From: Flavobacteriia bacterium
GTDB taxonomy: Bacteria > Bacteroidota > Bacteroidia > Flavobacteriales_D > Crocinitomicaceae
DNA length: 64,000 nucleotides
Assembly (NCBI GenBank): GCA_947450325.1
Contig: CANFUT010000020.1
Coordinates: forward strand, 1 to 64,000
Direction of reading: 5' to 3'
Below the pieces are notes generated by a model. It worked only from the letters and a program-made list of their open reading frames with translations, did no database searches and had not been told where the DNA came from. Positions within the stretch are counted from its first letter, which is position 1. Each line of letters begins with the position of its first letter. Below are positions 206-4,157 of the stretch, in pieces. Made by a program: the position numbers and the translations under genes.

Positions 206-2410
206 TTAGTCTTCGATTGTGATACCAAGACTATTGAATTTACGGTAATCTTTTACTTCAGCTTTTTTGAATAAAGCTTGACTAACAGAACTTCTGACGT
301 TTCCTCTTGCTGCATTCAACAATTGATTTTTCTCTAAATCATAATTGCTTGTTGCTGGTGCTTTGGTTGTTTTATTCAAACGAATCAAGTAAACACCTTG
401 CAATCCTTTCAAAGGAATAGTCAATTCTCCATTTTTCAATCCTGCGAACAATGAACCTACAACTTCTGGCTCAAAACCACTTCCACCAAATTGAGGATTT
501 GCAAATGTTACTTCAGCTTCTTGCACTGGAGTATTCATTTTTTTGGAAGCTGCTTCAATCGTTCTGCTTCCAAGCATCATTCTTGTGAAACGTTTTGCTT
601 TCAAATCATTCATTACTTCCACTTTCATTCGAGCTTCCACATCTTCGAAATTTGGAACACCTTTTTGACGGATAGAAGAAATAATCGCAATTACATATTT
701 AGAACCATCTTTGATTGGATAAGACATCATTCCAACTTCTGCGTCTTCATCGTAAGCCAATTTCAAAATTTTATCTTTTGCCATTGGAGTTTCAAATGCA
801 TTTACTCTTGGACTTTCTGTCAAGATATCAATTGGTTGAGTAACGAAGAAATCATTTCTTCTAGCCAATGTATCAAACAAGTCTAATTTCGCTTTTGGCG
901 TTGATTTTTTCTCAATTTTTGCGGAGAATTCGTCATACACTTCATAAGCGGCGCTTTTAGCATCATCTTCAGTGTCTTGACTTGGAGTCAATGTTTTTTG
1001 AATGATTGCCAATACCGGGAAGTTTACTTCTCTTTTATCCAATACTTCGATTATGTGGATCCCGAAAGTTGTTTTCGCAGTTCCAATTTTTCCAATTGGA
1101 TTATCAATTGCAAATTGAGAAAACTCAGGAACCATTTCGTAATCTAAGAAATCTTCATAGACACCACCATTTTGTTTCAATCCTGGATCTTCAGAGAATC
1201 TTTGAGCGTATTCAGGGAAATTTGTTTTGTTCAAAGTCACCATGATGCTGTCTGCTTTGCGTTTAGCTTTCACAAATGACAACGTATCACCTTGTTTCGC
1301 ACCAATTAAGATGTGACGTACTTTCAATACATATTTATTGAAATCCAATACTTTCGCAAGTCTTGTGTTTCCTTGATCGTAATATGGTCCAACGATTTGA
1401 CCTTTGCTCGCAGTTTTGAAAATAGTATCCATATACATTGGATAAGTCATTCCTTGTTTCGCTTTAGGATCATTTTCAGGTCTGAAAGTCGCTTGGTGAG
1501 TGCTTGAATAAGCTTTCATATCACTATTAGCCAATACAAATAAACTATCTGTTTTGGTACTAGTTGATTTCGTGAACTGCGTTTTCAAATCGGTCATGAT
1601 TTTCGTAAATTTTGTCGTATCCTCTTTGGAAGGAGCCACTTTAATTTCGAAATACTTCACCGTTCTACCAGCCGTAGCTTCCCATTTTTTCTCATTTTTA
1701 TGCTCTTCGTAATAAGCGCGTACTGCAGCGTCAGATACTTTCACTTGATCATCAGGAATTTCACTGTATCTCTTAGCGATGTATGAAATGCTTTTCAATT
1801 CTTTTTGTGCTTTGTATTCTTCCTCAGCTTCTAAGTCTGTAACATAAACACCTTGAGACAACAATTGAAAATACTTTTCAGATTTGCGTTGCTTTCTTAA
1901 ATCCTTTTTGTTTTGCTCCCATTGTGCAGCTTCGTTAGGATCTTTAGAAGACTCCATTTGTTGAATTCTTTGCTCCAATAATCTTGGATTGAATTTACCA
2001 GTTGAGTCTACAAAAGTTTGAGCCAAATTTTCCATCACAGTGAAACCGTCTGTACCATACAAGTAGGCATCAAGTTCTCTTTGACTCACATCAATTCCTA
2101 ATTCTTCAAATTCTTTTTCGAAAATGATGTCTTCTACAACAGCATTCCAAGCTTTCTCAATAGAGTTTTCTTGATCTTGAGCAGTGTAAGGACGTTGTGC
2201 TTGAGCAGCTTGTTGCTCGTCCATCATTCCTACTTCTCTACTTTTTTGCTCGTAAACATCATATTTTACTTTTTCACCATATACCAAACCTGGACCAACG
2301 TCTGCAACGTTGCTTTTATTAAATTCAGGTAAAATAAATGCTAATAAAGCTAAACCAATAATAATCACCAGTAAACCTGATCTTTCTCGAATTTTTCCAA
2401 TTAGAGCCAT
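206..2410 (-). CDS. ppiD: PpiD-like membrane-anchored peptidyl-prolyl isomerase
   Basis: Periplasmic folding helper anchored in the inner membrane. Residues 12-29 form one hydrophobic segment (LLVIIIGLALLAFILPEF) preceded by basic residues, so the bulk lies in the periplasm. Residues about 40-240 form a SurA/PpiD-type N-terminal chaperone region rich in charged helices. Residues about 365-460 carry a parvulin (PpiC) domain beginning VRHILIGAKQGD and ending GIHIIEVLDKRE, followed by a second chaperone-like half. The 734-residue length fits Bacteroidota SurA_N/PpiC proteins of this type. The ATG at 2410 directly precedes the anchor. Single gene with its own terminator. Likely substrates are outer-membrane and secreted proteins, which are plentiful here; that link is inference. 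Confidence 0.88.
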   Translation of the reverse strand: MALIGKIRERSGLLVIIIGLALLAFILPEFNKSNVADVGPGLVYGEKVKYDVYEQKSREVGMMDEQQAAQAQRPYTAQDQENSIEKAWNAVVEDIIFEKEFEELGIDVSQRELDAYLYGTDGFTVMENLAQTFVDSTGKFNPRLLEQRIQQMESSKDPNEAAQWEQNKKDLRKQRKSEKYFQLLSQGVYVTDLEAEEEYKAQKELKSISYIAKRYSEIPDDQVKVSDAAVRAYYEEHKNEKKWEATAGRTVKYFEIKVAPSKEDTTKFTKIMTDLKTQFTKSTSTKTDSLFVLANSDMKAYSSTHQATFRPENDPKAKQGMTYPMYMDTIFKTASKGQIVGPYYDQGNTRLAKVLDFNKYVLKVRHILIGAKQGDTLSFVKAKRKADSIMVTLNKTNFPEYAQRFSEDPGLKQNGGVYEDFLDYEMVPEFSQFAIDNPIGKIGTAKTTFGIHIIEVLDKREVNFPVLAIIQKTLTPSQDTEDDAKSAAYEVYDEFSAKIEKKSTPKAKLDLFDTLARRNDFFVTQPIDILTESPRVNAFETPMAKDKILKLAYDEDAEVGMMSYPIKDGSKYVIAIISSIRQKGVPNFEDVEARMKVEVMNDLKAKRFTRMMLGSRTIEAASKKMNTPVQEAEVTFANPQFGGSGFEPEVVGSLFAGLKNGELTIPLKGLQGVYLIRLNKTTKAPATSNYDLEKNQLLNAARGNVRSSVSQALFKKAEVKDYRKFNSLGITIED

Positions 2411-2618: not shown

Positions 2619-2650
2619 TTTGCAAAATAGAAAATCATCATATACATTTG
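2619..2650 (+). promoter_or_regulatory. Bacteroidota-type promoter of the small-RNA unit
   Basis: TTTG at 2619-2622 and TACATTTG at 2643-2650 match the -33 TTTG and -7 TAnnTTTG boxes with a 20-bp spacer. Expected transcription start is about 2654. There is no open reading frame between this promoter and the terminator at 2694-2725. Confidence 0.6.
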
Positions 2651-2653
2651 TCT

Positions 2654-2725
2654 CAGGTTTAGTTGTAAAAGGTAGGTTAGGTTAGGTTAGAAGAGAGTGA
2701 GACGCCCGTCTCACTCTTTTTTTTT
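2654..2725 (+). ncRNA. Candidate small RNA with GG-repeat motif
   Basis: A short transcription unit of about 70 nt bounded by a two-box promoter and a strong terminator, with no coding potential. Its body holds four GG doublets at 2671, 2675, 2680 and 2685 separated by 2, 3 and 3 nt (GGTAGGTTAGGTTAGG), which could form a two-layer G-quadruplex or serve as a repeated single-stranded binding site. I do not recognise an RNA family. Expression is unproven; the unit could also be the remains of a leader that lost its gene. Confidence 0.5.
2694..2725 (+). terminator. Strong rho-independent terminator
   Basis: Ten-base-pair perfect stem AGAGTGAGAC (2694-2703) with GTCTCACTCT (2708-2717), four-base loop GCCC, then nine T (2717-2725). 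It ends the candidate small RNA; no gene lies between it and the IS end on the plus strand. Confidence 0.85.
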
Positions 2726-2818
2726 GTGTTTAATTCAAACTTAAAAACCTGAATTTAAACCAATTGATATAACACTCTTTGATTTAACTTCATTTAGAAA
2801 GATTCTAACCAAATAAAA

Positions 2819-2853: not shown

Positions 2854-2999
2854 AAAACGAAATCGAAAATGTGGTTAGGACTACTCAGTTATTTAAAGTT
2901 TCTAATCAAGCGCAATCCAGAGTGAAGCGTTTGATAGCTCATAAATTTCATTGTATTTCAAATACTTTGAAGATTGTTAAACTTTAAATAAAAGCAGTT
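2854..2999 (+). promoter_or_regulatory. Foldable 5' leader of hmgA
   Basis: The predicted hmgA leader contains an 11-bp outer stem (ATTTAAAGTTT 2891-2901 with AAACTTTAAAT 2979-2989). Inside it are an 8-bp hairpin (TCAAGCGC 2906-2913 with GCGTTTGA 2927-2934, one G-U pair) and a small hairpin GTATT/AATAC near 2953-2965. Together these could form a branched fold just ahead of the start codon. No known riboswitch class recognised; the role is inference. Confidence 0.4.
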
Positions 3000-4157
3000 A
3001 TGCCATTCTATCACAAACTTGGACGTTTCCCGTCAAAAAGACATACCACTTTCGAAAAGGAAACTGGTGGATATTATTATGAACAATTATTTGGAACAGA
3101 AGGTTTTAGTGGGTTTTCATCCATTTTATACCATGTTCACAGACCAACACAAGTCAAATCTATTTCAAATCCAATAGATTTAACACCTATTGCCGCTTTT
3201 GGAAAAAACATACAATCTCACATGATTCGTGGTTACGAAGTTGAACCACAAGATGACTTTTTAGATAGCCGTGTGATTGTTTTGTTCAACAATGATATCA
3301 ATGTTGCTTGTGCTTCGCCGCGAAAATCTTTGACTTCCTATTTCTACAAAAATGCTGATGCAGATGAAGTAATTTTCATCCATAAGGGAACAGGAAAATT
3401 GAGAACCTTGGTCGGAAATATTCCTTTTGAATATGGCGATTATTTAGTGATTCCAAGAGGAATGATCTATCAAATTGAATTTGATTCAGAAGACAATCGT
3501 TTGTTTATTGTTGAATCGTTCAGCCCTGTATTAACACCCAGAAATTACAGAAACAAATTTGGACAATTACTAGAACATTCTCCTTTTTGTGAACGAGATT
3601 TCAAAATTCCTTCAGAATTAGAAACACACGACGAAAAAGGTGATTTCATTGTGAAAGTGAAAAAGGAAAATATTTTGCACGAAATCGTTTATGCTACGCA
3701 TCCATTTGATGTGGTTGGTTGGGACGGATTCAATTATCCGTATGCTTTCTCTATTCACAATTTTGAACCAATTACAGGTCGCGTGCATTTACCACCGCCA
3801 ATTCACCAAACATTCGAAGGAAACAATTTTGTAATTTGTTCTTTCGTTCCTCGTTTATACGATTACCATCCAAAAGCTGTTCCTGCGCCGTACAATCATA
3901 GCAACATCGATTCTGATGAAGTTTTGTATTACGTAGATGGTGATTTCATGAGTAGAAATCACGTTGAAAAAGGATACATTTCTTTGCATCCAGGTGGAAT
4001 TCCACACGGGCCACACCCAGGAGCAATGGAGCGCAGTATTGGTCAAAAGGAAACTGGAGAATTGGCTGTGATGGTCGATACTTTCAAACCGTTGAAATTG
4101 ACGCAAGCTGCATTGGATCTTTCTGATAAAGATTACTACAAATCTTGGTTGGAATAA
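3000..4157 (+). CDS. hmgA: Homogentisate 1,2-dioxygenase
   Basis: Opens the aromatic ring of homogentisate to maleylacetoacetate in tyrosine/phenylalanine breakdown; a cytosolic Fe(II) enzyme with a double cupin fold. The C-terminal cupin shows His300 in APYNHSNIDSDEV and His336 in the GGIPHGPHPG loop, corresponding to the iron-binding region of the family (PHGP is diagnostic). At 385 residues it is shorter than the animal enzyme (~445), as expected for the Bacteroidota form. The gene starts after a long foldable leader and is followed 63 bp later by hppD, which makes its substrate, so the two probably form an operon. Maleylacetoacetate isomerase and fumarylacetoacetase are not in the window. 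Confidence 0.93.
   Translation: MPFYHKLGRFPSKRHTTFEKETGGYYYEQLFGTEGFSGFSSILYHVHRPTQVKSISNPIDLTPIAAFGKNIQSHMIRGYEVEPQDDFLDSRVIVLFNNDINVACASPRKSLTSYFYKNADADEVIFIHKGTGKLRTLVGNIPFEYGDYLVIPRGMIYQIEFDSEDNRLFIVESFSPVLTPRNYRNKFGQLLEHSPFCERDFKIPSELETHDEKGDFIVKVKKENILHEIVYATHPFDVVGWDGFNYPYAFSIHNFEPITGRVHLPPPIHQTFEGNNFVICSFVPRLYDYHPKAVPAPYNHSNIDSDEVLYYVDGDFMSRNHVEKGYISLHPGGIPHGPHPGAMERSIGQKETGELAVMVDTFKPLKLTQAALDLSDKDYYKSWLE

Follow-up and report, generated by a model that had tools for sequence, protein, structure and literature searches.

The window analysed here is a stretch of 64,000 nucleotides from a Flavobacteriia bacterium of the family Crocinitomicaceae (positions 1 to 64,000 of contig CANFUT010000020.1, assembly GCA_947450325.1). 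Near its left end, the start of a ppiD-like foldase gene on the minus strand (position 2410) and the start of hmgA on the plus strand (position 3000) leave an intergenic gap of 589 bp, and in this gap, as an earlier note made from the letters had described, a small unit stands alone. The features of the locus are as follows.

206 to 2410, minus strand: ppiD-like foldase gene (SurA_N/rotamase), divergent neighbour
2619 to 2622, plus strand: promoter box TTTG (-33), read from the letters 20 nt 5' of the -7 box
2643 to 2650, plus strand: promoter box TACATTTG (-7; Bacteroidota sigma-A TAnnTTTG), read from the letters
2655 to 2725, plus strand: sRNA gene of about 70 nt, its 5' end placed by promoter spacing and the edge of conservation
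2656 to 2681, plus strand: single-stranded 5' block GGTTTAGTTGTAAAAGGTAGGTTAGG, almost invariant in the aligned copies, directly behind the TAnnTTTG box
2671 to 2690, plus strand: UAG-repeat block GGTAGGTTAGGTTAGGTTAG, read from the sequence and proposed as an RRM-protein site
2691 to 2725, plus strand: Rho-independent terminator, a hairpin with a GCCC loop closed by AC/GT, then T9
3000 to 4157, plus strand: hmgA, homogentisate 1,2-dioxygenase-like downstream gene

The two-box promoter proposed in the earlier note is read at 2619-2650 as TTTG-N20-TACATTTG, and its -7 box follows the TAnnTTTG consensus of the Bacteroidota (PMC9723704). The arms of the terminator occupy 2691-2704 and 2707-2720, with the T run at 2717-2725. 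No plus-strand ORF of at least 30 amino acids was found in the unit, in agreement with the description of a body of about 70 nt without coding potential. The unit folds at -20.6 kcal/mol (z = -2.26 against shuffles), and the predicted fold of the 74-nt RNA is the terminator hairpin and nothing else; the 5' half of the sRNA is therefore predicted to be single-stranded. The four GG doublets are as described earlier (2671-72, 2675-76, 2680-81, and 2685-86, with spacers of 2, 3, and 3 nt), and four UAG triplets stand at an exact 5-nt spacing (2673, 2678, 2683, and 2688), with a fifth at 2660; the octamer GUAGGUUA lies inside the UAG-repeat block, at 2672-2679. An sRNA gene of about 70 nt within the unit at 2619-2725 is well supported, and the signals in the sequence point to its transcription. 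It should be mentioned that a perfect 13-bp inverted repeat, TTATTTAAAGTTT / AAACTTTAAATAA (window 2889-2901 and 2979-2991, 77 nt apart), lies just 5' of hmgA and is possibly a leader structure or an operator.

Conservation across the Crocinitomicaceae

The 26-nt 5' block, GGUUUAGUUGUAAAAGGUAGGUUAGG, is nearly unchanged throughout the Crocinitomicaceae, whose members are aquatic bacteria. The 121-bp unit matches 17 of 59 relatives by BLAST, and a covariance model (R1), built from 12 sequences with the window copy among them, scores 79.7 bits on the window (2654-2728, E = 2.7e-14). At E <= 0.01, R1 has matches in 138 of 200 family genomes, a count that takes in weaker paralogs, and in 19 of 24 genera; the strong type, type A, is usually single-copy per genome. 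Among 43 copies of the same length, nearly all columns of the 26-nt block are 0.98-1.00 identical, a figure that is partly circular because 41 of the loci were picked by an exact 25-mer search and the identity tally demanded a near-exact pattern; the promoter spacer and the terminator arms of the same copies mostly show identities of about 0.35-0.6. The BLAST set and the covariance-model set are independent of this selection, and their strong copies almost all keep the exact block, as do nearly all of the best 30 R1 loci, which were not selected by pattern. The exceptions (e.g., L013, L017, L018, and L165) differ in one to a few letters. Judged from these sequences, the conservation is far beyond chance.

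A TAnnTTnG box precedes GGTTTAG by 12-14 nt in the majority of the 45 distinct copies, and a TTTG/TTG-like element is seen in the relatives about 35 nt 5' of the GG start, with identities of 0.79-0.81. In the terminator stem, 9 of 12 pairs have changed on both sides and 95.1% of the cells pair; the stem reaches a covariation score of 0.641, where shuffles give 0.298 and slid versions 0.235 at most. The terminator keeps its shape while its letters drift, with compensatory changes. The stem of the terminator that the earlier note had described covaries across genera.

The genomic setting of the window copy is a local variant. The most frequent neighbours are a divergent fabG upstream (32 of 41 named loci) and a convergent Porin_10 gene downstream (31 of 41); apart from the window, two of the closest relatives have the ppiD-hmgA arrangement, and a fourth genome of the same genus (L084) retains fabG. 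The unit is an orphan in its immediate surroundings only, given its relatives across the family and two paralogs in its own genome. The named carriers are Crocinitomicaceae, Fluviicola, Lishizhenia, and Taishania, together with a few MAG records under other labels; one record titled Chryseobacterium gleum (L110) looks mislabelled. Beyond the Crocinitomicaceae there are weak or different relatives only, and the RNA in its full form has so far been seen in this family alone. Carriage by phages was considered and set aside, the exact block being absent from the viral contigs.

Paralogs and known small RNAs

The genome of the window holds two paralogs, a type B RNA at C39:6332 (GTTTTCATAAGTAGTAGTTAGGTTAGGTTTTAG plus terminator) and a type C RNA at C11:38311 (CAGTAGTAGTAGGTTAGGTTGATTAGTGTAGC plus terminator, with its own TACATTTG upstream), and other genera have a type D RNA (GATTTAGGTGGTTAGGTTAGGTTGATTA) as well as type B copies in tandem. 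The three RNAs of this genome have in common UAGGUUAGGUU-like repeats and an excess of UAG (5, 5, and 6, against about 1.0-1.5 in shuffled sequences; p = 0.008, 0.0006, and 0.0001); for the window RNA, the count of 5 compares with 1.49 in mononucleotide shuffles. Lishizhenia has a shorter repeat with three UAGs (p = 0.12), and the UAG excess of the type D paralogs is not significant (p = 0.11). The terminators of the three RNAs have a GCCC/GCCA-type loop with the same or nearly the same closing letters, and a UAGGUUAGGUU-like block recurs in several otherwise different paralog types of other genera. The paralogs retain the UAG block and the terminator and differ in the 5' part. In type B, this part contains UUUUCAU, the reverse complement of AUGAAAA. 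Over the 364 gene starts sampled, type B has 9 matches of at least 10 nt where 0.57 would be expected; the excess sits on the start codon and is missing from two control stretches. The upstream extension CTT/ACTT 5' of ATGAAA is over-represented (6 versus 1.4, p = 0.0008), and the genes concerned mostly encode products starting with a signal-peptide-like stretch. One gene family in L125 contributes several of these genes as tandem copies, so that fewer of them are independent; exported proteins are a candidate target group.

In Rfam, no family reached its gathering threshold in the window, in line with the earlier note, which had recognised no known RNA family. The best weak matches at the site, L20_leader (21.0 bits; gathering threshold 58.7) and FopS (17.1 bits; 56), were rejected as memberships, being below gathering and mostly generic terminator matches. 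On a 261-base stretch the FopS hit had an E-value of 2.3 and covered positions 25-71 only, and the best match of this model elsewhere in the genome reached 27 bits. A search of open-access papers, outside which most subscription literature lies, found no description of the RNA.

FopS (RF04319) nevertheless resembles the window RNA in design: about 65-70 nt, a sigma-A promoter, a conserved single-stranded 5' half with UUAG/AGGUUA, a Rho-independent terminator, and several paralogs per genome (PMC11697453). Its known partner is an RRM protein, and in Bacteroides it acts by start-codon pairing (PMC11697453). On the contrary, the FopS 5' end GUGUUUUUCAUgGU, which includes a CAU able to face start codons, is missing from the window RNA (there is no CAU in 2655-2690), and the terminators differ. 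Type B, with its UUUUCAU, looks nearer to FopS but still gives no model match at E <= 1. GibS is longer (145 nt) and has the same design of a single-stranded 5' seed followed by a terminator (PMC7366714). Rfp18 of Flavobacterium psychrophilum is also an intergenic regulatory sRNA in the Flavobacteriales, but it is strongly folded and pairs via its third stem-loop, whereas the terminator is the sole hairpin of the window RNA; a link was set aside on the published description of Rfp18 alone (PMC9723704). We regard the RNA as a new family of sRNAs, though of a kind already known: it resembles FopS in design but scores below the gathering threshold of that model and lacks its start-codon seed. For genome annotation, it supplies an RNA family that is not yet listed.

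RRM proteins, base pairing, and the UAG repeats

Hfq, ProQ, and CsrA are all absent from Bacteroides (PMC12119571). In bacteria of this sort, RRM proteins are leading candidates for the way in which sRNAs act, but very few species have a known RRM ligand. In the genome of the window, no Hfq match was detected and CsrA (PF02599) gave no match, whereas control genomes do match; on these grounds both were rejected as partners. The genome encodes two RRM_1 proteins (C6:107302-107511 and C11:4089-4298; 82.1 and 76.7 bits), and one of the two gives a good alignment with solved RRMs, including that of hnRNP A1. In Bacteroides thetaiotaomicron, the FopS sRNAs are in vivo ligands of RbpB, which contacts them in their single-stranded 5' part (PMC11697453). 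The RbpB ligand GUAGGAUA, which comes from a distant genus and whose KD is given second-hand in PMC12119571 as 5.1 uM, agrees with GUAGGUUA in 7 of 8 letters. Motifs of the GUAGGUUA type are absent from the leaders of the RRM mRNAs, and RRM autoregulation through such a motif was dropped; nor is the sense motif enriched near gene starts in the sampled stretches.

We propose, with slightly less than even confidence, that the UAG-repeat RNA occupies or titrates RRM proteins that serve FopS-like sRNAs. A standard Bacteroidota sigma-A promoter and a terminator of its own would delimit a stand-alone RNA of about 70 nt, whose unstructured 5' half would display the UAG repeats GUAGGUUAGGUUAGGUUAG. 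These repeats are proposed as landing sites for a single-RRM protein of the RbpA/RbpB type, and an RNA holding one or several RRM copies would compete with FopS-like sRNAs and mRNAs for the same protein; both binding and competition are what we infer. CsrB-type RNAs titrate CsrA, and the proposed sponge would parallel them with another protein and another motif. As in CsrB/RsmY, a short protein-recognition motif recurs in a small RNA, which would titrate a global RNA-binding protein; unlike them, the window RNA has no GGA hairpin loops, its UAG repeats are in single strand, and the proposed partner is an RRM protein. Two ideas of the earlier note, the small RNA and its alternative of a repeated protein- or RNA-binding site, are supported by the conservation of the family, with its near-invariant single-stranded block, retained promoter, and covarying terminator.

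At this same level of confidence, we rank protein titration or occupancy first and regard base pairing as the main rival, because type A has neither a start element nor a surplus of complementarity where tested, GUAGGUUA is close to GUAGGAUA, and two RRM_1 proteins, but no Hfq or CsrA, were detected in the genome. A trans-acting RNA, whose 26-nt block would be an extended seed blocking translation of one or a few mRNAs as in FopS and GibS, is a possible but rather doubtful reading. Its anatomy, a long conserved single-stranded 5' end plus a terminator, is that of GibS and FopS (PMC7366714, PMC11697453), the conserved non-repeat letters UUUAGUUGUAAAA would suit a seed, and the type B sibling in the same genome has one. 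Yet the sibling shows its clear surplus of start-codon matches at the very 364 gene starts where the window RNA shows none, in duplex energy or in contiguous matches; the fabG and porin starts offer no complementarity either, and the CAU anti-start element is lacking. Pairing near starts was rejected on this sample, which comes from 464 kb, about 13% of the genome, so that a few genuine mRNA targets could be missed. It is noteworthy that UUUAGUUGUAAAA is as conserved as the UAG repeats: 26 conserved nucleotides, UUUAGUUGUAAAA included, exceed the 3-5 nt that a protein motif requires, and therefore part of the block probably serves another job, possibly base pairing. An RNA of dual function, in which the 5' part GGUUUAGUUGUAAAAG pairs with an mRNA and the UAG block attracts an RRM protein that either promotes or prevents this pairing, would account for this two-part conservation and for paralogs that preserve the UAG block and terminator and vary the 5' part, and RbpB is reported to counteract FopS in B. 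thetaiotaomicron (PMC11697453); the sampled gene starts, however, yielded no targets of the 5' part, and we consider such an arrangement unlikely.

Two further readings fare much worse. The quadruplex-capable core of the earlier note, a two-layer RNA G-quadruplex from the four GG doublets, finds its loops of 2, 3, and 3 nt here and in close relatives, but it is not supported: no more than 17 of the 45 distinct copies keep the tight run GG-TA-GG-TTA-GG-TTA-GG, and many positions other than G do not vary. Any two-layer quadruplex with loops of up to 7 nt is available in 29 of 45, Lishizhenia (L009) lacks the third GG of the run, and UUUAGUUGUAAAA, which a quadruplex does not need, is conserved throughout; this structure is very improbable. 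Least probable of all, and scarcely credible, is pairing with the anti-Shine-Dalgarno sequence of 16S rRNA through AAAGGU-AGGU: by eye one can sketch 9 bp with a single bulge, but the best duplex energy (-10.3) hardly differs from that of shuffled seeds (-9.9, sd 2.3; 39% of shuffles do as well), and AAAGGUAGGU is missing from the paralogs.

Returning to titration or occupancy, I speculate, and the idea is rather less likely than the sponge itself, that the Crocinitomicaceae possess a network of paralogous sRNAs whose common base is a UAG-repeat landing pad for RRM proteins. Type B would add a start-codon antisense seed, in places in tandem behind sigma-54-like promoters, and type A, without a seed, would be the sponge that sets the available RRM protein. 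If true, the type A/B network would be an RRM-based equivalent of the CsrA/CsrB system. The near-frozen 5' letters, and siblings that share the UAG block but not the pairing part, allow a direct mutational test of UAG.

Further observations on type B and related RNAs

The type B seed UUUUCAUAAGUAGUAG (C39:6332-6394, L039) shows complementarity to start codons in genes for signal-peptide-like proteins. Within the 464 kb that were sampled, its matches include TACTTATGAAAA twice and ACTTATGAAAA twice, and the matched gene starts lie in the window (plus strand, about 34237 and 55357) and also in L125. In the genus of the window, the type B copies (L039, L022, and L025) have no clear TAnnTTTG box and lie between two same-strand genes, and for these reasons they may be 3'-UTR-derived. 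Tandem type B arrays occur at L145-L149 (G157:C115, G142:C31, G129:C29/C37, and G209:C199) and L178; many of the tandem copies lie behind TTTGGCACG-N-TTTG, a sigma-54-like element (TGGCAC-N5-TTGc, with the last C changed), and the arrays recall multi-copy Qrr-type RNAs. In another family of the order (L175 and L177), a related RNA with UUUCAUUAAUAAGGUUUAAUUGGUGAUUAAGGUAG 5' of its terminator resembles both FopS and type B, which suggests a wider FopS-like group in the Bacteroidota.
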